Notes under the pieces: generated by a model | Databases searched by the model: none | Told to the model about the DNA's origin: nothing | The model's input: only the letters and a program-made list of their open reading frames with translations | From: Ignavibacteriota bacterium | Lineage (GTDB): Bacteria; Bacteroidota; Ignavibacteria; SZUA-365 | Reading direction: 5' to 3' | Assembly: GCA_016218045.1 (NCBI GenBank) | Contig: JACRFB010000045.1 | Span: 124,001-188,000, forward strand | Length of the DNA: 64,000 bases | Translations under genes and position numbers: made by a program | Shown: in pieces, positions 7,202-56,369 of the stretch | How the letters are laid out: each line of letters opens with the position of its first letter | How positions within the stretch are numbered: position 1 is the first letter of the stretch

Positions 7202-9097
7202 ATGAAACACATCCACAGCGCCCTTATCGCGTGCGCCTTCCTCTGTGTGCTCGCCGGAAGCATGCTCGCGCAGCAGCGCGACACGGTTGTCATCCTGCAC
7301 ATCAATGACACACACGCGAACCTGCTGCCCTCGGGTCCGCGCGCGACCGACATGTCGCAGACCATGGGTGGTATCGCGCGTGCGGTCTCGTACGTCGGCG
7401 CGCAGAAAATGTCGGATCCGCAGACGCTGTTCATGCATGCCGGCGACATGTCGATCGGCGATCTCTTCTTCAACGGCTATTTCTCCCTCATCGAACTGGA
7501 ACTGCTGTCGGAGGCGAATCTCGACGTGATGTCGCTCGGCAATCACGAGTTCGATCTGGGCAGCGGCATTCTACTGTCCATACTCGACACGGCGCAGGTG
7601 CCGTTCCCTATACTGTGCGCAAACATGTCGGTGCTCGACGCCTCCGTCGCGCGGCTCGCCACGCACGTGCTCCCGCACACGACGCTGCTCTCGAAGGGCC
7701 ACAAAATCGGGGTGTTCGGGCTTGTCACACCCGAGGCGAACTTCATCTCCAATCCGCTGCCCGAAGTGTATCTCGAAGCGGATACGGCTCTGGCGCGCAT
7801 CATCCTTGCCGAGGTGCAGGCGCTGAAAGCCGACGGCTGCGAGGCGGTGATCCTTCTCTCACATCTCGGCCGCAACGGCGACATGCTCGTGGCGGAGACA
7901 TTCCCGGGCATCGATTTGATCATCGGGGCGCACGACCATTACGCCGAGACGGCCCCGCTGTACGTCACCAACACGGCGACGAACGCACGTGTGCCGATAG
8001 TGCAGGCAGGCGCGTTCTACCAGCACATCGGACGGGCGTCGCTGGTGTTTTCAGGCACGGCCCTGTCGGGCTTCGACTGGCAGCTCGTGCCGCTCGACGC
8101 GCGCGTCCCCGAGGAACCCACCACACGGACCATCGTCGACTTCCTCGCGACAGAACTTGAAACCACCTTCGGATATCCGCTCTTCACATCGACCGCAACA
8201 ACGGTCACCGAGACGCTCGAGGAACTGCCGTCGGATCCGACCAAAACCGGTTTCCACGATACGCCCGTCGCAAATCTCATCACCGACGCGTTCCGTGATT
8301 TCACCAAAACCTACATCGCCATCACGGCCTGCGGCGCCACGGCGCAGCCGCTGTACAAAGGTCCCGTCACGCCGAACGACGTCTTCCGCATGATCGGCTA
8401 CGGATTCAATCCAGTGACCTACGTCGGGTTCCGCGTGGTCTCCTTCGACATCTCAGGCGCGGCCATGCTTGTGGGCCTCGAGTTCGGGCTCTCGCAGATC
8501 GAACTCAGCGACGAATTTCTGGTACAGACATCCGGCATGGAATACGAGTACAATCCCGCGGCGCCGCCGTATCAACGCCTGCTCCCGGGCAAGGTGCTCG
8601 TAGGCGGGCAGCCGCTCGATCCCACCAAAAGATACACCGTCACCACCAACGAATTTGTGCTCGCCATCTTCAACGCCATCGTGCAGCAGTCCGGCATCGA
8701 CACACTCGGCAACATACAGGGCTACAACGATTTCACTGAACTGCAGGTGGTGCTGACCTATCTCGCGAAGAACTCGACCTACAGTCCGGTACGGCGCCGC
8801 GGACCTCTGCCTGTGCAGCGCCTGGAATCCGGCGTGCGCGCGCTTGCGCTCGGGCATTACCCGAATCCGGTGTCGAGCTCCACCGAGATCATCTTCGACA
8901 TCCCCGAGGCGGCGCAGACGACACTCACCGTCTACGACGCGGCGGGCAGGACGGTCGGTATCGTGGTCGACGCGCGGCTCGAGGCCGGGCGCCACACGCG
9001 GCATTTCGACGCCTCCGCGCTTGCGCCGGGCATGTACAGCTACGTGCTTCGCAGCGGCGTCGTCGTGAAGACACAGCGTCTTGTGAAGATCCAGTAA
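7202..9097 (+). CDS. Exported 5'-nucleotidase/UshA-type metallophosphatase with type IX tail
   Basis: 631 residues with a strong GGAGGAG ribosome site just before the ATG. Signal peptide residues 1-23. The N-terminal metallophosphoesterase domain shows the dinuclear metal motifs in order: HINDTH (33-38), HAGD (79-82), GNHEFD (113-118), LLSHLG and GAHDH (the GxHxH motif near 243). The 5'-nucleotidase C-terminal substrate-binding domain follows (about 330-520; ANLITDAFRDF). Residues about 550-631 are a type IX secretion sorting domain (YPNPVSSSTEIIF..., ending in LVKIQ). It should hydrolyse nucleotides or related phosphoesters outside the cell, surface-attached or released by the type IX system. 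Alone in its transcription unit as far as can be seen. Confidence 0.9.
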   Translation: MKHIHSALIACAFLCVLAGSMLAQQRDTVVILHINDTHANLLPSGPRATDMSQTMGGIARAVSYVGAQKMSDPQTLFMHAGDMSIGDLFFNGYFSLIELELLSEANLDVMSLGNHEFDLGSGILLSILDTAQVPFPILCANMSVLDASVARLATHVLPHTTLLSKGHKIGVFGLVTPEANFISNPLPEVYLEADTALARIILAEVQALKADGCEAVILLSHLGRNGDMLVAETFPGIDLIIGAHDHYAETAPLYVTNTATNARVPIVQAGAFYQHIGRASLVFSGTALSGFDWQLVPLDARVPEEPTTRTIVDFLATELETTFGYPLFTSTATTVTETLEELPSDPTKTGFHDTPVANLITDAFRDFTKTYIAITACGATAQPLYKGPVTPNDVFRMIGYGFNPVTYVGFRVVSFDISGAAMLVGLEFGLSQIELSDEFLVQTSGMEYEYNPAAPPYQRLLPGKVLVGGQPLDPTKRYTVTTNEFVLAIFNAIVQQSGIDTLGNIQGYNDFTELQVVLTYLAKNSTYSPVRRRGPLPVQRLESGVRALALGHYPNPVSSSTEIIFDIPEAAQTTLTVYDAAGRTVGIVVDARLEAGRHTRHFDASALAPGMYSYVLRSGVVVKTQRLVKIQ

Positions 9098-9278: not shown

Positions 9279-10382
9279 ATGAGGACGATCGCAACGATAT
9301 GCTGCGTCTGCGCCCTGCTTGCGGCGGTTCCGCTTACCCGCGGCGTGCCCGCGCAATCCAAATCGAAGCAGCGCGGCGTGAAGGTGACGACGGCTCCGAA
9401 GAAGGAGGTTTTCACCGGGAAGGCCTACGACAATCTCTGGGCGGTGGTCATCGGCATCAACGACTACAAACACTGGGACGATCTCAACTACGCGGTGAAT
9501 GACGCCCGGGCAGTAAAGGATCTTCTCATCCGTAAATACGGTTTCAGGGCCGATCACATACTGGAACTGCTCAACGAGGATGCAACACTCGTCAACATCC
9601 GCACGACGCTGGGCGGCGTGCTGCCGCAGAAGACAAAAAAGAACGACGGGGTGATCGTCTTTTTTGCGGGTCACGGCGAGACGGTGGATCTGCCTGACGG
9701 CGGCAACCTCGGCTACCTCGTGCCACACGAGGGTTCGACCTCGAAGGGCGAGTACTTTGCCACACTGCTGCCAATGACACAGATCCGCGAAATCTGCACG
9801 CTCATCCCCGCAAAACACGTCTTTTTTGTCGTCGATGCGTGTTACAGCGGACTCGCCGCCGCTTCAGAACGCGGCATGGCCGAGGAAACCCGCGTGTACG
9901 TGAGCAAGCTGGCGTCGATGAAGAGCAGGCAGATACTCACCGCGGGCGGACGCGGCGAGCCCGTGATGGAAAACGACGAGTGGGGTCACAGCGCGTTTAC
10001 CTACAAACTTCTCGAGGGCCTCGAGTCGGGCTCTGCCGACACCGACGCCGACGGCGTTATCACGTCCGGCGAAATCGCGCTGTACATCAAGACACGCGTG
10101 CCTAAACTTTCGGGCAACAGGCAGACGCCGCAATTTAAAAATCTCTCGAACGACGAGGGCGAATTCATCTTTCTCTCCCCCGAGCGCGCGGCCAAAGCGG
10201 GCGTGACACAGTCGCGCGGTGTGCCCGGCGGCGGCGAGGAGGCGCCCGATGCGCTGCGACAGGAACTCGAGCGGCTCAAGCAGGAGAACGAACGATTGAA
10301 GGAACAGCAGAAAAACGAGAAGAAGGACGCGAAAAGCCGCGACGGCAAGGACGACCGCGACCTCTTCATCCCGCCTCCCTGA
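9279..10382 (+). CDS. Exported caspase-family (C14-like) protease with EF-hand loop and C-terminal coiled coil
   Basis: 367 residues. A signal peptide (1-26) precedes a caspase p20-like domain from about 48. The fold motifs are WAVVIGINDYKHW, the catalytic histidine in VFFAGHGE (near 128) and the catalytic cysteine in FVVDACYSG (near 188). A canonical calcium loop, DTDADGVITSGE (near 250), lies in the C-terminal part of the protease domain, so calcium control is plausible. Residues 325-360 are a charged coiled coil (LERLKQENERLKEQQ). Substrates are expected to be cleaved after Arg or Lys as in metacaspases, but the specificity pocket was not assigned. First gene of a four-gene operon; 22 bp to the next gene. 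No convincing ribosome site precedes the ATG. Confidence 0.85.
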   Translation: MRTIATICCVCALLAAVPLTRGVPAQSKSKQRGVKVTTAPKKEVFTGKAYDNLWAVVIGINDYKHWDDLNYAVNDARAVKDLLIRKYGFRADHILELLNEDATLVNIRTTLGGVLPQKTKKNDGVIVFFAGHGETVDLPDGGNLGYLVPHEGSTSKGEYFATLLPMTQIREICTLIPAKHVFFVVDACYSGLAAASERGMAEETRVYVSKLASMKSRQILTAGGRGEPVMENDEWGHSAFTYKLLEGLESGSADTDADGVITSGEIALYIKTRVPKLSGNRQTPQFKNLSNDEGEFIFLSPERAAKAGVTQSRGVPGGGEEAPDALRQELERLKQENERLKEQQKNEKKDAKSRDGKDDRDLFIPPP

Positions 10383-10404
10383 CACAGGCACACAGGACAC
10401 GACC

Positions 10405-10749
10405 ATGAAAATTCTCGCTTGTCTGCTCGCCGCCACCGCACTTTTTGCGGCCGGCTGTGAGGCAAATCCCGAATACCCGGACGCACCCGTCGCGGGACTC
10501 GTCACCGTGGTGAACGAGTCGTCGGACGATTTCCAGGTTCTGCGCTTCCGCGTAAACGGAACCATCGACTGGAGCAAGGACTATCTCGGCTCGGGAACCA
10601 CTATCCCGTCCGGCGAAAGCGTGACGTATTACATGCCCGTCGGCACGTTCGATTTCCTTGCCGAGAACACAATCGACCGCATCTACGTCGAGTTCAAGAA
10701 CATCACGATCACGCGGGGTCAGGAAACTACCCTGACCATCATCGACTAG
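10405..10749 (+). CDS. Small lipoprotein of unknown function
   Basis: 114 residues. Signal peptide with lipobox FAAGC (lipidated Cys at 18). The mature part is mostly beta-rich with no recognised domain: TVVNESSDDFQVLRFRVNG then a second half rich in Thr and Ile. The pattern (an exported, about 95-residue beta protein reading as 'elements of a single small barrel or sandwich') would suit a periplasmic or surface-anchored adaptor, but no function can be named. It lies between a caspase and an outer-membrane barrel and is 8 bp from the latter, so it probably acts with them. Confidence 0.75.
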   Translation: MKILACLLAATALFAAGCEANPEYPDAPVAGLVTVVNESSDDFQVLRFRVNGTIDWSKDYLGSGTTIPSGESVTYYMPVGTFDFLAENTIDRIYVEFKNITITRGQETTLTIID

Positions 10750-10757
10750 GAGGCCCC

Positions 10758-11495
10758 ATGACACGCACGCTCCGCGCGATCGGCGCAGGCCTCCTTCTGC
10801 TGACCTTGTGTGTCGCAGGTCCGGCCACCGCGCAAACACGCCTCTATGCGGGAGTCAAATCCTGGTACGCGAACTGGGATTTAAAAATCGACCGCATCGA
10901 AGGCGCGACACAGACCGACTATTCGGCCGCGTTCATGACGGGCCCCTATCTCACGCTTCGTATCGGCAAGGTCGCCACGACTGTATCCTACAGTACGTCG
11001 CTCCTCCATTTTGCAGCCGAGACGCGCAACCCCGGTTATAATCAGGTCGGTTTCAACATGAACCGCGAGTTGAAACGCGACGACATCAACGTCGTCCTGC
11101 AGTATTACCTCTCGTCGGATGTCGCCGTCTTCGCCAACGCCAAGTTCCTCACGTACCTGATGCGTGACGCCACCGTGTTCATCAATCAGGAGAGGGTCAC
11201 ACTCGACGAGAAGTTCACGAGCAGCGGTTTCGGCGGCGGCCTGCAGACCTCCGTACAATTCCGCGACGACAGGAGCTTCTACTCGTATCTCAGCGTCGGG
11301 GCAGTGTACAATTCGTTCAACGTCGTGATTGTCGACACAAAAAAATCGGAACTGATGTACTTCCTCGACACGGGCGTCGGCTACCTCGTACCGGAAACAC
11401 GCCTTGGTCTCGTGCTTGGACTGCGCGGTGAACACGGCGGCGAGACAAAAACGATCATCGGTCCCGTACTCGGACTTTTTCTCCAGCCATTCTGA
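10758..11495 (+). CDS. Predicted outer-membrane beta-barrel protein
   Basis: 245 residues with an AGGAGG site directly upstream. Signal peptide residues 1-25 (ends ATAQT). The remainder alternates polar and hydrophobic residues with many aromatic girdle positions (KSWYANWDLKI, YLTLRIGKVATTVSY, SFYSYLSVGAVYNSF) and ends in phenylalanine (LGLFLQPF), the usual last residue of outer-membrane barrels. Roughly 10-12 strands by eye. No named family recognised. Its stop overlaps the next gene's start (TGATG), which indicates translational coupling to the second caspase. Confidence 0.75.
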   Translation: MTRTLRAIGAGLLLLTLCVAGPATAQTRLYAGVKSWYANWDLKIDRIEGATQTDYSAAFMTGPYLTLRIGKVATTVSYSTSLLHFAAETRNPGYNQVGFNMNRELKRDDINVVLQYYLSSDVAVFANAKFLTYLMRDATVFINQERVTLDEKFTSSGFGGGLQTSVQFRDDRSFYSYLSVGAVYNSFNVVIVDTKKSELMYFLDTGVGYLVPETRLGLVLGLRGEHGGETKTIIGPVLGLFLQPF

Positions 11496-12952
11496 TGCGC
11501 AGACCGGATATGCGACACGTGACTTCGACCGAGACGCGGATCCGCGCACTCCCGCATCCGCGGGCCGCGGAAGCTTCCCCGGAATTTCTCCGCACGAGAC
11601 CCCTTCCAGGCCGAGTGTATACCGCGCTTGTAGTGTGTTTTCTTCTGGCGATTGTCGCGCCCGTGTATGCGCAGCGCGGCCTCGAGGTTTCGATACGGGC
11701 CGACAAGGGCAGCGGCATTCCCTACGTCGATGGCGAGCGTCTGCTGATACAGGCGCGCGCGAGTGCGGCATGTTATCTGCACGTGGTGTATCAGGACGCG
11801 TCGGGCGGACTCTTCCTCATTTTTCCGAACGACGGGTCCGATCCGCGCGGACACGTTGCGGGAGGGACCGATCTCGAACTCGGAAAAGGGCAGGAGATCG
11901 ACGGTTTCGAATTCACCATCACGGCGCCGTACGGCGCGGAGATGTTGCGTGCTTACGCGAGCACCGCGCCACTCCCGTTGCCTCCGGGCGAGAAGCTGGG
12001 CGGTGGCATGATCCGCCTCACCGATTCGCCCGACGGCCTGGATCTCCGGTATGCCGACGCGACGCAGGGATCGCGGGCCGCGCTGGCAACGGCATCCGCG
12101 CTCCTGCGCACCACCGCCGCCGCGCCGCGGACGCGCGACAAGGAGGATGCGGCATCCTCGGCCGTGCCAGAAGAGTCCTTCCGCAAGCCGCGTATATTCG
12201 GGCTCGTCGTGGGTGTGTCGCGCTACGCGTCCGCAGGCATACGGCCCCTGCAGTACGCGGACGACGACGCGCGCGCGATGGCCGCATTCTTGGCGGATAA
12301 AAACGGGGCCGGAATACCGCCCGCACAACTGCGCGTGCTGATCGACGAGGATGCGTCGCGCGAGAACATTCTCGACGCGTTCAGGGACTTTCTCTCCACC
12401 AGCGAATCCGGTGATCTCGTCTACATCTATTTTGCGGGACATGGCATCACATCGCCCTCACAGAATGCGACCTACTTTCTCAGCAGCGACGCCGATCTTG
12501 CGCGGCCGCAGAGCACGGCGGTGGATCAGGCCGAAATCACCGCGCTGCTCACACAGCGGGTGAAGGCGGGGAAAATCGTCTTTTTCATCGATGCATGTCA
12601 TGGTGGCGGACTCGGGCTGACAGGCGTGCGTCTGCGAGGCGCCACCACCGTCCTGTCGTCGCGCCTTCTCACGGAACTCGTTTCAAAAAAGGACGGCACG
12701 GCATTCTTCTCGGCGTCACGCGCGGCGGAACAGTCGCAGGAAGGACCGCGGTGGGACGGGCACGGAGTCTTCACGTATTATCTCGTGAAAGGCCTCCGCG
12801 GCGCAGCCGACGCAAATGCCGACACGAAGGTGACCGTGGACGAGCTGGCGGACTACGTCGGCGCGCAGGTCAAGTCCGACACAGGCGGCCGCCAGCATCC
12901 GGAATTGAAGGGATTTTTCGACAACGACCTCGTGTTGAGTGTTTCCCGCTGA
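11495..12952 (+). CDS. Exported caspase-family protease with N-terminal DUF4384-like domain
   Basis: 485 residues. About 40 polar residues precede a hydrophobic segment (YTALVVCFLLAIVAPVYA, 43-60), so the true start may be internal, though the ATG at 11495 overlaps the preceding stop in TGATG. Residues 62-175 resemble DUF4384 (RLLIQARASAACYLHVVYQD, LIFPND), a domain often joined to bacterial proteases and kinases. The caspase domain covers about 227-480: GLVVGVSRYAS, catalytic His in IYFAGHGI (near 315), catalytic Cys in FFIDACHGGG (near 368). An EF-hand-like loop DANADTKVTVDE (near 442) lacks the usual Gly at position 6. It is the last gene of the operon and is followed by a terminator. Confidence 0.85.
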   Translation: MRRPDMRHVTSTETRIRALPHPRAAEASPEFLRTRPLPGRVYTALVVCFLLAIVAPVYAQRGLEVSIRADKGSGIPYVDGERLLIQARASAACYLHVVYQDASGGLFLIFPNDGSDPRGHVAGGTDLELGKGQEIDGFEFTITAPYGAEMLRAYASTAPLPLPPGEKLGGGMIRLTDSPDGLDLRYADATQGSRAALATASALLRTTAAAPRTRDKEDAASSAVPEESFRKPRIFGLVVGVSRYASAGIRPLQYADDDARAMAAFLADKNGAGIPPAQLRVLIDEDASRENILDAFRDFLSTSESGDLVYIYFAGHGITSPSQNATYFLSSDADLARPQSTAVDQAEITALLTQRVKAGKIVFFIDACHGGGLGLTGVRLRGATTVLSSRLLTELVSKKDGTAFFSASRAAEQSQEGPRWDGHGVFTYYLVKGLRGAADANADTKVTVDELADYVGAQVKSDTGGRQHPELKGFFDNDLVLSVSR

Positions 12953-13191: not shown

Positions 13192-13839
13192 TTGGCGCAA
13201 TTATTCCCCGCGTGGGCGAATAAGGCCCCACGCTATGTGCTGCTTGGACTGACCTTCGGTCTCGTCCTGGCGATAGCGTTCGTCTGGTACTACTGGTCAC
13301 CCTGGTACACCGACGTGGGCTACGCCCCCGTACAGCCGGTGCCGTACAGTCACAAGCTCCATGTCGGGCAGCTCGGCCTCGATTGCCGGTACTGTCACAC
13401 CGGTGTGGAGAAGGCGGCTGTCGCGATGGTACCGCCCACGCAAACCTGCATGAACTGTCACCAGATTGTTTTGCCGACGAGCCCCAAGCTTGCGCTCGTG
13501 AAACAAAGTTGGGAGACACGGACGCCGATCGAATGGATACGGGTGCACAAGGTGCCCGACTACGCCTACTTCGACCACAGCATGCACCTGCGTGCGGGAG
13601 TCGGATGCGAGAGCTGCCACGGCCTCGTGTCGGGGATGGATGTGGTGGAGCTGACGCAGCCCCTGAGCATGGGGTGGTGTCTCGAATGCCACCGCGATCC
13701 CGACATGCACCTGCGCCCGGCATCGGCCATCACTGCCATGGGATGGACGCCGCCGGCGAATCAGCGGGAGCTCGCCGCGAAGATCAAGAAGGATCTGGGC
13801 CTCCGTCCGCCCGTGTCCTGTTCCGGTTGCCATCGATAA
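13192..13839 (+). CDS. actA: Alternative complex III subunit A, pentahaem cytochrome c
   Basis: 215 residues from a TTG start: a TAA in frame lies 6 nt upstream and GAGG lies 8 nt before the TTG, so no other start is possible. One N-terminal membrane anchor (about 15-35). Five CxxCH motifs at 65-69, 86-90, 139-143, 163-167 and 210-214 give the five-haem ActA pattern. In alternative complex III, ActA carries electrons from the iron-sulfur subunit toward periplasmic cytochrome c or the oxidase. First gene of a 16-kb co-directional cluster. Confidence 0.95.
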   Translation: MAQLFPAWANKAPRYVLLGLTFGLVLAIAFVWYYWSPWYTDVGYAPVQPVPYSHKLHVGQLGLDCRYCHTGVEKAAVAMVPPTQTCMNCHQIVLPTSPKLALVKQSWETRTPIEWIRVHKVPDYAYFDHSMHLRAGVGCESCHGLVSGMDVVELTQPLSMGWCLECHRDPDMHLRPASAITAMGWTPPANQRELAAKIKKDLGLRPPVSCSGCHR

Positions 13840-13881
13840 CGGTCGATTAGAGTCCCGCGTCACGAGACCACAGTGAAGAAT

Positions 13882-16860
13882 ATGAAATCCACCTGGAAGA
13901 GCATTGATGAATTGCGCGGAAGAGCGCACGATGCGACACATAATCTCGAGAATCCGCCCGAGGGTCTGCCTTCGGGAATGGATCGCCGTACCTTCCTGAG
14001 CCTGATGGGCGCCTCAGCGGCGCTAGCCGGCCTGGCCGGCTGCAGGAGGCCCGAGGACCGGATCGTTCCGTACGTGTCGAAGCCGGAAGACCTCGTGCTC
14101 GGCATACCACAGCGGTACGCTACGACGATGCCGTTTGGTCTCGAGAACATCCCCCTGCTCGTGACGAGCCATGAAGGCCGTCCGACACACATCGAGGGAA
14201 ATCCGCTCGATCCGTCCACCGCGGGCGCCGTGAACGTGTGGACCAGCGCATCGATTTTGGACCTCTATGATCCCGACCGTTCGCAGGTCGTGCGCAACGC
14301 AGGTGCGGAGGCCGAACTTGCGGCGTTTGTGGGCGACTGGCAGGTCAAACACGCCGGGTTTGTGCAGACGCAGGGAGAGGGACTCGCAGTGCTGTCGGGA
14401 TCGTTCGCGTCGCCGACACTTGCGCGTCTGGCGGGCGAATTCCGCGCACGCTTCCCGAAGGCGCAGTGGGTGACGTATGATGCCGTGAACGACGACACCA
14501 TTGTGCAGGGCTGTGCCGCGGCCACGGGACAGCGCGCGATTCCCGTGTATGATTTTACCAACGCCGATGTCGTCCTGTCGCTGGATGCCGATCTTTTCGG
14601 CACAGAGAGCAACGCCATCACCAACGCGCAGGGCTTCGCCTCGCGGCGCCGCATTCGTTCGACGAACGACACGATGAACCGCTTGTACCTCGTCGAGGGC
14701 ACGCTGTCGACCACCGCATCCATGGCCGATCACCGGCTCCCGGTCCGTTCGGGACTCATCAACGCCTGCGCAACCGCCATTGCGGAAGAGTTGCGCCGGC
14801 AGGGCCTGACTTTGCCCACGATCGGCGGACCCGCCGTCGGGGCCGGCCAGTTCGACACGCGCTGGATTGCGGCCGTCGCGAAGGATCTGCTTGCGCATCG
14901 CGGCCGTTGCGTGATAGCCGCGGGACGCCGCCAGCCGCCGGCTGTGCATGCACTTGCCGCAGCACTCAACGCGGCCCTGGGGAACGTGGGGACAACCGTT
15001 AAATATCTGCTGCCCCGGCATGCCGAGAGCACCGACACCGCCGCGTTCGAATGGCTTGTCACGCTCATGAACGCAGGCAAGGTGCAGATCCTGGTAATGC
15101 TCGACACCAACCCCGTGTATTCCGCCCCGGCTGATCTCGCGTTCGGGGAAGCGCTCGCCAAGGTCGGAACGATTATCCATGCCGGGCAGTCATTCGACGA
15201 AACCGCGGCCGCCGCAACATGGCATGTGCCGCTGCATCACTACCTCGAAAGCTGGGGCGACGTGAGCACGCTCCACGGCTCGCACGGCGTTGTGCAGCCG
15301 CTGATCGCCCCGCTGTACACGGGCATGAGCCTGACCGAAATGGCCGCGCTCGTCTCGGGGGGCGCGCAGATCAAGGGATACGATGCGGTGGTGCAGACGT
15401 GGAAAGCGCTGCTGCCCGCAGCCGGTTTTGATGCCGCGTTCACACGTGTCCTGCACGACGGACGTTTCGAGTCGGATGCTCTGCCGTCGATGTCGGTGGA
15501 CATGGCCCGCGCCGCCGCGTTCCATACATCGGCCTCCGTCAAACCCGCGGCCGTATCCGCCACCGCGCTGGAAGTGTCACTGCAGGCATCGCCCGCGGTG
15601 TACGACGGACGTTTCGCGAACAACGGCTGGCTGCAGGAATTTCCCGATCCGGTCACCAAGATCACGTGGGACAATGCGGCGATCATGAGTGAAGCCACCG
15701 CCGCGGCGCTCGGTGTGCGGAACGAGGACTTTATCCGGCTGACCTCCGCGGCAGGCAACATTGGACTGCCCGTGTGGATCATGCCGGGCCAGGCCGACTT
15801 CACCGTCACCGTCAATCTCGGTTACGGTCGGAAGAACTGCGGCCGCATCGGCGACGGTGTGGGCGACAACGGCTACCGCTTGCGCTCGTCCGCCAGCCCG
15901 TACATCGTGTCGGGCGTCACGATGCAGAAGATCCGCGGAACACATCGTGTGGCCTGCGTGCAGGATCACCACGGACTCGACACCGAGGATCTTGCGCGGC
16001 GCGGCATACAGGAACGCCTGCCGATGATCGTCCGCGAAGCGACACTCGAGGAGTATCAGCACGAGCCGAACTTTGCAAAGGAGCGCGTCGAGCACCCCGC
16101 GCTGCGTTCAACCTGGGACGAGCACACGTACAATGACGGTTTCCAGTGGGGCATGAGCATCGATCTCAACGCCTGCACGGGCTGCGGCGCATGTACTATC
16201 GCATGCCAGAGCGAGAACAATATTCCGATCGTGGGCAAGGAGCAGGTGCTGAACGGACGTGAGATGCACTGGATCCGCATCGACCGCTATTACGCGGGCA
16301 GCGTGGAACAGCCGGAAGTGCTCGTGCAGCCGCTCGGTTGCGTGCAGTGCGAGATGGCGCCCTGCGAGCAGGTGTGTCCCGTCGCGGCAACCTCGCACGA
16401 CGAGGAAGGCCTGAACGTGATGACCTACAACCGCTGCGTCGGCACGCGCTATTGCAGTAACAACTGCCCGTACAAGGCCCGCCGTTTCAACTTCTTCAAC
16501 TACTCGAAAGAAGCTCCCGAGACGGTGCAGATGGCGCGCAATCCCGAGGTGACCGTCCGTTTCCGCGGTGTGATGGAGAAGTGCACCTATTGCGTGCAGC
16601 GCATCGCGACGGGTAAGATTGCAGCCAAACGCGACGGCCGGGCCCTTGCCGACGGCGACATTGTTGCCGCGTGTGAATCGGCCTGTCCGACCCGCGCCAT
16701 CGTGTTCGGCGACACGCGTGACGAGAAGAGCCGCATCAGCGCGGCGAAAAAACTCGACCGCGACTATGCGCTGCTTGGCGAGCTGAACGTGCGTCCGCGT
16801 ACAACATATCTCGCGAAGCTGCGCAACCCGAATCCGGATCTCGCATCCGGCAAGGCCTGA
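13882..16860 (+). CDS. actB: Alternative complex III subunit B, molybdopterin-oxidoreductase-like and iron-sulfur protein
   Basis: About 992 residues. ATG 13882 is chosen (GAAG upstream); an in-frame GTG at 13873 adds three residues. A twin-arginine signal lies at about 33-56 ([21 protein letters not shown]), where the final Cys may be lipidated. Residues 60-720 resemble the molybdopterin oxidoreductase fold, which lacks cofactor in known ActB. The C-terminal 250 residues hold four cysteine clusters typical of three [4Fe-4S] and one [3Fe-4S] centre ([40 protein letters not shown]...CESACP). It takes electrons from quinol oxidised at ActC and passes them to the ActA haems. Confidence 0.95.
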
Positions 16861-16939
16861 CGGCGGTCCGCACGTATCCATCGTTCCTGATCGAAGACAT
16901 CGAAGAAGAATATCCAATACAACAGTTGGTGCAGAGCAC

Positions 16940-18358
16940 GTGAGTACCAAGAATCAGCAACACTACAGCCCGCCCGATGCCGGCGCGGGCGCGCTTGCGG
17001 GCGAGGCCCTCGTGACGGGAGGTCTCGATTTCCGCGGCATCACGGAAAAAGTCAGCAGCATCGTCGAACGGCCCACCCCCGCCGGCTGGAAGATCGCCTT
17101 CTCGCTCGCAGTGTCGGTTCTGTTGATGCTGATCGGCACCATCGGCTGGCTGGTGTACAACGGCACCGGTATCTGGGGTTTGAACAATCCCGTGGGCTGG
17201 GGATGGGACATCGTGAACTTCGTGTTCTGGGTCGGTATCGGACACGCGGGCACGTTGATCTCGGCCATCCTCTTCCTGCTCCGTCAGCGGTGGCGCACGG
17301 CGATCAACCGCTTCGCCGAGGCGATGACCATCGTGGCGGTTATCTGCGCGCTGATGTTCCCCGGCATACACGTCGGTCGTATCTGGATTCTGTACTGGTT
17401 CTTCCCCGTCCCGAACCAGATGTCGATGTGGCCGAATTTCCGCAGCCCGCTGCTGTGGGACTTCTTCGCCGTGGGCACCTACTTCACCGTATCCGCGCTG
17501 TTCTGGTACGTCGGACTCGTCCCCGACCTCGCAACGCTGCGTGACCGCGCAAAGACGCGCATCCGCAAGATCGTCTTCGGTCTGCTGTCCCTGGGATGGC
17601 GTGGAGGCAACAGGCAGTGGCGTCATTACGAGGTGGCGTATCTGATGCTGGCAGGTCTCGCGACGCCGCTTGTGCTTTCCGTGCACTCGATCGTATCCAC
17701 CGACTTCGCCACCAGTCTCATCCCCGGATGGCACACCACCATCTTCCCGCCCTACTTTGTCGCGGGCGCCATTTTCTCGGGCTTCGGCATGGTGATGACA
17801 CTCGCGCTCATCGCGCGCAAGATCTTCCATCTCGAGAACCTGATCACCATCGGGCATCTCGAAAAGATGAACAAGATCATGCTCGTGACCGGCAGCATGG
17901 TGGGGTACGCGTACATCATGGAATTTTTTATCGCCTGGTACAGCGGGAATCTCTACGAGGCCTTTACCTTCGTGAACCGCGCCTTCGGCAATTACGCGTG
18001 GGCATACTGGATCATGTTCCTCTGCAACGTGATCACGCCGCAGTTGTTCTGGTTCAAGAAGGTCCGCACCAGCATCCCGTGGATGTTCGTCCTGTCGATT
18101 TTTGTCAACATCGGCATGTGGTTCGAGCGTTTTGTGATCACCGTCTCCTCGCTGTCGCGCGATTTCCTGCCTTCGTCGTGGGATTACTTCTCGCCGACCA
18201 TATGGGACATGATGACTTTCGTGGGGAGCTTCGGACTGTTCTTCACACTGTTCCTTCTTTTCCTTCGTTTCCTTCCGATGATTTCGATGACTGAAGTGAA
18301 GGCCGTGCTTCCCGAGGCCGATCCGCATCACCACCCGCACGGCGGAGGTGCCGCATGA
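16940..18358 (+). CDS. actC: Alternative complex III subunit C, NrfD-like quinol-oxidising membrane protein
   Basis: 472 residues from a GTG start. About ten membrane helices, NrfD/PsrC family, full length for ActC. Recognisable stretches include the helix-loop [18 protein letters not shown] (near 93), the conserved [14 protein letters not shown] (near 140) and [18 protein letters not shown] (near 265). ActC is the main site of menaquinol or ubiquinol oxidation in the complex. The C-terminus has a His-rich tail (HHHPHGGG). Its stop overlaps the actD start by 4 nt. Confidence 0.95.
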
Positions 18359-29540: not shown

Positions 29541-29548
29541 AGCTTCAT

Positions 29549-29676
29549 CAGATGATCAGACGATTAGACGGTTAGACGATCAGACGATTAGACGGTTAGA
29601 CGATCAGACGATTAGACGGTCAGACGATCAGACGATTAGACGGTCAGACGATTAGACGGTCAGACGATCAGACGGA
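29549..29676 (+). repeat. Octanucleotide tandem array, unit YAGACGRT, 16 units
   Basis: Sixteen contiguous 8-bp units fill exactly 128 bp. Units are CAGACGAT, TAGACGGT and TAGACGAT; the first (CAGATGAT) and last (CAGACGGA) are imperfect. The order A-B-C-A-B-C then A-B-A-A-B-A-B-A shows expansion of higher-order blocks. Slippage-prone. Confidence 0.95.
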
Positions 29677-29744
29677 TGGATTTCTATCCCCTCGTAATAA
29701 CCTAGAGGGACGTCGCCACCAGTATGTTGATCCACGTTGAAGAT

Positions 29745-30300
29745 GTTCCGGGACAGCATCAACGGTGTGACGGGCTGCTGTCGAGGAGTACTGGGACAAC
29801 GTCTGCGGTGTAATGGGCAAGCGCCTGAGGTGTTCCGGGACAGCATCAATGGTGTGACGGGCCACCGTCGAGGAGTATTGGGACAATGCCTGCGGTGTAT
29901 CGGTCAGACACCTGAAGTGTTCCGGGACAGCATCAATGGTGTGACGGGCCACCGTCGAGGAGTATTGGGACAATGCCTGCGGTGTATCGGTCAAGCGCCT
30001 GAAGTGTTCCGGGACAGCATCAACGGTGTAACGGGCTGCTGTCGAGGAGTACTGGGACAACGTCTGCGGTGTATTGGTCCGGTACCTGAAGTGTTCCGGG
30101 ACAGCATCAATGGTGTGACGGGCCACCGTCGAGGAGTATTGGGACAACGTCTGCGGTGTATCGGTCAAGCACCTGAAGTGTTCCGGGACAGCATCAACAG
30201 TGTAGCGGGCTGCTGTCGAGGAGTACCGGGACAACGTCTGCGGTGTATCGGTCAAGCGCCTGAAGTGTTCCGGGGTAGCATCAACAGTGTACCGGGAACA
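29745..30300 (+). repeat. Tandem array of an 87-bp unit, six copies plus a part
   Basis: The word GTTCCGGG begins at 29745, 29832, 29919, 30006, 30093, 30180 and 30267: a period of exactly 87 bp. Within a unit, two half-repeats of about 44 and 43 bp are related (both contain GGGACA, then TC, then CGGTGT). Translation gives a 29-residue repeat on either strand, but substitutions look no better tolerated in one frame than another. Not CRISPR: the copies are contiguous. Confidence 0.95.
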
Positions 30301-35482: not shown

Positions 35483-35531
35483 GGATTTGCATCACGCAGT
35501 AGCTTTCCTCGTTAGCCGTTCCCCTTTCCCC

Positions 35532-35611
35532 TTTACGCCTTTACCCCTTTACGCCTTTACCCCTTTACGCCTTTACCCCTTTACGCCTTTACCCCTTTAC
35601 CCCTTTACGTC
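35532..35611 (+). repeat. Octanucleotide tandem array, unit TTTACSCC, ten units
   Basis: Ten exact 8-bp steps: TTTACGCC and TTTACCCC alternate four times, followed by TTTACCCC and TTTACGTC. The last 15 bp are inside the neighbouring transporter gene and form its stop codon and final codons. Confidence 0.95.
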
Positions 35612-55958: not shown

Positions 55959-56369
55959 GGCGGGACTCCGGTGCGTCGTGGAAGGTGCGGGAGGAAGGAG
56001 GGCGGGAATGATCCCGTAGCACAGAAAATTACCGACGGGGGTAGGGAAAAGCAAGGGAACTGACATAGAGTCGATTCGCGTCTACGGACTCCTTCATCCT
56101 AACATTCGTGTGAGGATACAGGAGAAAGGATACAGGAGCCGACACTGTCGCGATTCGTGGCTCCTTACTCCTGTATCCTGGGTCCGCACATTCGTGTGAG
56201 GATACAGGAGAATGGATACAGGAGACAGGCACGTGTCGATTCGTGTCTCCGGACTCCTTCATCCTAACATTCGTGTGAGGATACAGGAGAGAGGGGACAG
56301 GAGATAGGCACCGTATCGATTCGTGTCTCCTGCCTCCTGTCTCCTGTATCCTCTCACGAGTATTAGGGG
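55959..56369. other. Gap containing hairpin-forming repeats
   Basis: 411 bp between the PLP enzyme start and the end of the epimerase-like gene. Most of it is the repeat array described at 56102-56355. No gene and no clear promoter pair was found for the PLP enzyme. Confidence 0.65.
56102..56355. repeat. Three copies of a hairpin-forming repeat of about 80-86 bp
   Basis: ACATTCGTGTGAGGATACAG starts at 56102, 56188 and 56267. Each copy contains GGATACAGGAG direct repeats and ends with the reverse-complement CTCCTGTATCC or CTCCTTCATCC, so each can form a long hairpin. The CTCCTGTCTCCTG-like ending resembles that at 32205-32235. Confidence 0.85.

Follow-up and report, generated by a model that had tools for sequence, protein, structure and literature searches.

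Exported caspases are widespread in bacteria, yet to our knowledge none has been assigned a substrate or a partner. What such proteases do in the cell envelope is the question raised by four genes in a 64,000-nucleotide stretch of DNA from an Ignavibacteriota bacterium (assembly GCA_016218045.1, contig JACRFB010000045.1, positions 124,001 to 188,000), hereafter called the window; its genome (G000) is a 4.77-Mb draft in 72 contigs. A first-pass annotation described two exported caspases, here c1 and c2, that flank a lipoprotein and an outer-membrane beta-barrel, and domain matches, signal peptides, the lipobox and a model of the barrel bear this description out. The four genes constitute a real envelope operon under selection, and all four products are exported. 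We tentatively favor the view that the operon provides a pair of envelope orthocaspases, together with two outer-membrane partners, for limited and regulated proteolysis in the periplasm. A small conserved set of this kind, with two exported caspases and two outer-membrane proteins, lends itself to a search for substrates and partners. The genes, all open reading frames of one strand, and their relevant motifs are as follows.

9279-10382, + strand: caspase c1, 367 amino acids, with a Sec signal peptide, a Peptidase_C14 domain, and a C-terminal coiled coil and basic tail.
9672-9674, + strand: codon of the c1 catalytic His132 (AGHG), invariant between orthologues and aligned to metacaspases of the PDB.
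9840-9842, + strand: codon of the c1 catalytic Cys188 (DACYSG), invariant between orthologues.
10038-10073, + strand: EF-hand-like loop of c1, DTDADGVITSGE, from a pattern scan of 47 caspase domains; putative function.
10251-10313, + strand: heptad-like coiled coil of c1, ALRQELERLKQENERLKEQQK, read from the sequence and kept in the orthologue.
10405-10749, + strand: small lipoprotein, 114 amino acids, with lipobox AAGC and a predicted seven-stranded beta-sandwich.
10758-11495, + strand: outer-membrane beta-barrel protein, 245 amino acids, with 10 predicted strands.
11615-12952, + strand (from 11495 if an upstream ATG is used): caspase c2, 445 amino acids from a probable GTG start, with a Sec signal peptide, DUF4384 and Peptidase_C14.
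11723-11971, + strand: DUF4384 domain of c2 (PF14326, E 4.5e-13).
12440-12442, + strand: codon of the c2 catalytic His (AGHG), invariant between orthologues.
12596-12598, + strand: codon of the c2 catalytic Cys (DACHGG), invariant between orthologues and aligned to metacaspase-4 and -9.
12809-12844, + strand: EF-hand-like loop of c2, DANADTKVTVDE, from the pattern scan; degenerate, and DLNDDGLVTIDE in the orthologue.

The evidence for an operon comes from a second genome, G007, which belongs to the same family as G000 and to another genus. There the four genes recur in unchanged order, separated by 17, 10 and 12 bp, and their products are 69% (c1), 60% (lipoprotein), 54% (barrel) and 60% (c2) identical to those of the window. 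The ratio of nonsynonymous to synonymous substitution (dN/dS) between the two genomes is about 0.13-0.31 by Nei-Gojobori counting, with dS near saturation, and points to purifying selection on all four genes. Because the same order persists in a second genome at 54-69% identity and dN/dS is low, the arrangement goes beyond chance. A scan for sigma-70 promoters found none, the sigma-70 model being uninformative for Bacteroidota.

The gaps of 22 bp (c1 to lipoprotein) and 8 bp (lipoprotein to barrel) are as first annotated, whereas a reported 1-bp overlap between the barrel gene and c2 needs an unlikely start for c2, the ATG at 11495. That start would add 40 codons (11495-11614) and give 485 rather than 445 amino acids. 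The G+C contents of these codons at positions 1, 2 and 3 are 0.70/0.65/0.65, versus 0.68/0.49/0.75 in the body of c2; the position-2 dip of the body is missing from the extension, which the other three genes do not resemble either. Moreover, the c2 orthologue of G007 has no counterpart to the 40 codons and begins directly with its signal peptide, just past the barrel gene. The GTG at 11615 yields MYTALVVCFLLAIVAPVYAQ, an ordinary signal peptide. Since the extension lacks the G+C pattern of the body, and since the orthologue starts at the signal peptide, c2 probably starts at GTG 11615, leaving a gap of 119 bp after the barrel gene.

Both caspases score far above the Pfam cut-off of 21.4 bits for PF00656 (c1, 69.5 bits over residues 54-288; c2, 75.8 bits), and c2 matches PF14326 with 49.5 bits. 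Against the NCBIfam model caspase_w_EACC1 (NF047832), they score 88.9 and 101.3 bits, below its curated threshold (140 bits). Each caspase has an intact His/Cys dyad, as had been stated. Orthocaspases have been reported to prefer a basic residue at P1 (PMC6426788), and the Asp of the DxC motif, the one feature that speaks to specificity here, fits with cleavage after Arg or Lys by c1 and c2. DUF4384 is a reported accessory domain of caspases (PMC6426788, PMC7475262); this domain, the coiled-coil tail of c1 and a conserved nucleotidase gene upstream of the operon are features that the first-pass annotation did not mention. An EF-hand-like loop is present in all four caspases of G000 and G007, being degenerate in c2 of the window. 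In its strict form, the loop pattern occurs in 9 of the 47 caspase domains taken from the class, and in a looser form in many more; from the loops we infer a possible role for calcium. Searches for a C-terminal sorting domain of the type IX secretion system (T9SS; PF18962 and TIGR04183) found none in c1 or c2, and both lack a lipobox. Because they carry a Sec signal but neither a T9SS tail nor a lipobox, the periplasm is the default location and a likelier one than the cell surface.

Both orthologues of the small lipoprotein carry a signal peptide followed by the lipobox Cys (AAGC), as is expected of a bacterial lipoprotein; neither it nor the barrel matches any Pfam family above cut-off. An AlphaFold2 (AF2) model of the lipoprotein has a mean predicted local distance difference test score (pLDDT) of 70, mostly 74-89 from residue 31 onward except for one loop, and its structural neighbors are domains of HGSNAT, PepT2 and AlgF at middling Z scores of 8-9. 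Profile matches to the lipoprotein in nine other genomes are fragments with E values of 1e-3 to 1e-2, mostly in far longer frames, and were taken as chance. Potempins hold proteases of Tannerella silent, and by analogy the lipoprotein might be a dedicated inhibitor that silences the periplasmic caspases until relieved by the barrel or by an outside signal. A small lipoprotein with a predicted beta-sandwich, encoded beside a cysteine protease, would suit this role; however, its best structural neighbors are not inhibitors and no sequence link to inhibitors was found, so that we regard this explanation as unlikely.

Modeling of the barrel topology, which had been proposed as a check, gave ten strands in the best AF2 model (pLDDT 65, predicted template modeling score 0.62). 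The best PDB neighbors of that model include 10-stranded barrels at Z 15-18, namely Legionella porin I of the Dot/Icm system (Z 18.0), OpcA (Z 17.0, 4.1 A over 201 residues), and pOmpT and Pla (Z ~15-16). The predicted fold is therefore like that of OpcA, the omptins and porin I, while identity to the window barrel is 13% or less. Omptins possess paired catalytic Asp/Asp and Asp/His motifs, none of which is conserved in the barrel family of the window: DxD and DxH are missing from the window barrel, and those of the G007 barrel are not conserved. With such low identity and without the catalytic pairs, protease activity of the omptin kind is unlikely. Matches of the barrel sequence to PDB entries of gp41 constructs were put down to chance.

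How far the barrel is tied to the caspases can be judged from its distribution. It was sought in the phylum with a single sequence and a 3-row profile (each on 395 genomes), in the order and class with a 2-row profile (16 and 391 genomes, respectively), and in the contigs of 85,000 genomes with two N-terminal peptide patterns only. The remaining 10 genomes of the family, four other members of the order and the 395 phylum genomes yielded none; likewise, the four-gene set is absent from the other 10 family genomes, and no further copy was found in the phylum and class samples or in the 85,000-genome scan, so that it is known from G000 and G007 only. All barrel searches together gave these two genomes and G411, a genome of another family, plus one weak match in G641 (E 0.007). 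The G411 homologue (G411:C129:5768-6592, L123; 275 amino acids) is the only further convincing one among the 391 class genomes, with a full-sequence E value of 2e-24 in a local search, and it adjoins a TonB_C protein and a secreted protein. Neither a caspase nor a lipoprotein homologue lies in the 14 kb around it, and the G411 genome has no c2-type match at E<=1e-10 and no c1-type match at E<=1e-30. The barrel family thus appears separable from the caspases and is not their obligate partner. Conserved synteny of the four families, a check proposed earlier, therefore holds for a second genus, but it extends to two genomes only and fails for the barrel in G411.

These observations lend weight to a plainer explanation, namely that the lipoprotein and the barrel do ordinary work in the envelope, are expressed from the same promoter as two housekeeping proteases of the periplasm and have no contact with them. 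The barrel of G411, without caspases around it or matches of either type in its genome at the above E values, and the generic folds of both proteins, are as this explanation would predict. On the other hand, G007 keeps the full order although its proteins have diverged to 54-69% identity and the genes downstream differ completely. Gene order is the one observation from which we infer that the lipoprotein and barrel are partners of the caspases, and for that reason plain co-transcription is a real possibility, close behind the partnership.

The first-pass annotation took the locus for a dedicated secreted or surface protease device. In such a device, the barrel would export the caspases or display them at the cell surface. 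The barrel does lie within the operon, and its nearest folds include surface proteins (OpcA and omptins). Nonetheless, a 10-stranded barrel is too narrow for the passage of folded proteins, and the caspases lack a T9SS tail and a lipobox and are not linked to an autotransporter. Given also that the barrel occurs apart from caspases and that the set is limited to two genomes, that claim does not stand up well, and we consider such a device improbable.

Still less credible is a role in defense or programmed death, in which a caspase cut would turn the barrel or the lipoprotein into a pore, by analogy with gasdermins. Although both caspases match the PADLOC caspase model, every one of the four products is exported, neither a sensor nor a STAND protein accompanies them, the barrel and the lipoprotein match no PADLOC or defense-family model, no companion gene of a known caspase anti-phage system was found, and the operon is surrounded by respiratory and envelope genes.

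The envelope orthocaspase pair is favored because of the caspase domains and dyads, the order kept in G007, purifying selection, and signals and a lipobox readable in both genomes; because of the predicted barrel fold, the beta-sandwich of the lipoprotein, the DxC motif, the EF-hand-like loops and the recurrence of DUF4384; and because the lipoprotein and barrel match no defense-family model. On this proposal, the operon would supply two envelope orthocaspases specific for Arg/Lys, along with two partners in the outer membrane. Both caspases would fold in the periplasm, where calcium would be available to their EF-hand-like loops; c2 may dock through DUF4384, and the coiled coil of c1 may allow self-association. 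The lipoprotein and the barrel would hold or regulate the caspases on the periplasmic side of the outer membrane, and the caspases would carry out limited cleavage of envelope proteins, serving maturation or quality control and not defense or cell death. Four points weigh against it: a review has argued that orthocaspases lacking a p10 are calcium-independent (PMC5756287); the predicted lipoprotein fold is a common beta-sandwich that is uninformative on function; the barrel was modeled from two sequences, with moderate confidence in the best model and poor results in the other four; and the neighborhood of the G411 barrel is free of caspases. A bolder version, in which the barrel and lipoprotein anchor and gate the two caspases in one outer-membrane complex as a calcium-responsive cascade, with c1 and c2 activating each other or cutting envelope proteins sequentially, has in our estimate only a small chance of being right, slightly above that of the inhibitor.

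The pairing of the caspases is not the outcome of a recent tandem duplication, which was rejected since c1 and c2 fall into separate clades of a tree of the 47 domains. There, c1 clusters with caspases of family f62 and of one f7 genome (support 99/98), and c2 stands among a different set, with caspases of its own family (G005 and G001) and of families f2 and f9 among its members; some long branches leave the finer placement unsure. The tree indicates that the two were brought together rather than recently duplicated. A phage origin was likewise rejected, the PHROG matches being weak and restricted to the caspase domain. The sole further Peptidase_C14 protein of G000, a WD40-caspase fusion, is encoded on contig 10 (G000:C10:97607-98353; L003, L024). 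WD40-caspase-like proteins of ~750-870 amino acids occur in nearly all genomes of the family, of which they are apparently the core caspase.

The upstream neighbor is conserved, as follows.

7202-9097, + strand: exported 5'-nucleotidase/metallophosphoesterase (PF02872, PF00149), with a T9SS tail (PF18962).

Its orthologue, 54% identical, stands in the same place in G007, only the back part being on that contig; it is probably a separate transcription unit and a conserved neighbor. G000 encodes three paralogous UshA/5'-nucleotidase-like proteins (this one, G000:C13:56309-58159 and G000:C45:47524-48867). Directly downstream of the operon, 13192-18358 holds genes whose products look from sequence like a multihaem cytochrome c, a molybdopterin-type protein with iron-sulfur clusters and an NrfD-like membrane protein, which we take to be the layout of alternative complex III (ACIII). 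In G007, by contrast, a transporter-like gene on the opposite strand follows the operon, and no match to the ActB-like protein was found in that genome at E 1e-100. A second copy of the ACIII-type large subunit lies at G000:C72:4196-7219. Elsewhere in the window are tandem repeats, at 29547-30296 (a 24-bp unit at 29548-29674 and six copies of an 87-bp unit at 29738-30290), at 35521-35608 (a 16-bp unit, 35523-35608) and at 56096-56351 (an 86-bp unit).

Exported caspases recur beside small envelope proteins in other families of the class. G270, G423, G452, G474, G239, G050 and G438 have DUF4384 within an exported caspase or next to one, and in f62 genomes the gene for an LPP20-DUF4384 lipoprotein directly precedes an exported caspase of the c1 type. 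G239, G005 and G050 share a family of small exported proteins, here A6, whose gene immediately precedes that of a caspase with additional beta domains (CARDB/DUF11-like in two genomes, with a weak Glucodextran_B match in G005), beside a large exported protein; the G239 and G050 clusters contain a second caspase, tandem or paired. The A6 family has no Pfam match and ends in a transmembrane-like stretch.

L075 6840-10586, L082 7384-10983 and L083 842-3708: LPP20-DUF4384 and caspase pairs of the f62 type, the lipoprotein gene ending no more than ~20 bp from the caspase frame, with a FlgO-like segment in two.
L070 8692-16506 (- strand), L071 4975-12563 (- strand) and L085 8386-16540 (+ strand): A6-caspase cassettes from three families of the class, the large exported neighbor having a FlgD_ig or T9SS-like tail.

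These clusters share with the window the placement of exported caspases beside small envelope proteins and DUF4384. They differ in that A6 is unrelated to the window lipoprotein (kinship was not supported, with an hhalign probability of 2.4%) and in that no relative of the barrel was found in the A6 and f62 stretches. In our view, the window operon is a variant, confined to its lineage, of the exported-caspase clusters found repeatedly in this class. The operon suggests that such proteases may serve the upkeep of the envelope, not cell death. More is probably to be gained from the class-wide pattern, in which exported caspases of several families stand by DUF4384 proteins and small exported proteins, than from this operon by itself.

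A literature search, with subscription papers mostly outside it, turned up no account of these four genes in this order. Like known orthocaspases and DUF4384-caspase fusions, the window caspases possess a His/Cys dyad, a DxC motif and an accessory DUF4384 (PMC7475262, PMC6426788); they differ in being exported and paired and in their EF-hand-like loop, whereas the characterized MaOC1 is described with no domain beside p20. A 2012 survey by Asplund-Samuelsson et al. counted 20 operons that encode two or more caspase homologues, with Bacteroidetes among four groups, and an OmpA domain in 14 caspase operons, and it noted that some caspases are likely exported and might act at the cell surface (PMC3501461). 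Those operons are alike in having several Peptidase_C14 genes and in including genes for outer-membrane proteins, while the barrel and lipoprotein families and the order caspase-lipoprotein-barrel-caspase do not appear in the passages of the survey that were consulted. The earlier statement that no such system had been described thus holds for the exact order but not for operons with several caspases or with a caspase and OmpA, which were reported in 2012 (PMC3501461). The locus is a rare new arrangement within an already known kind of caspase gene cluster.

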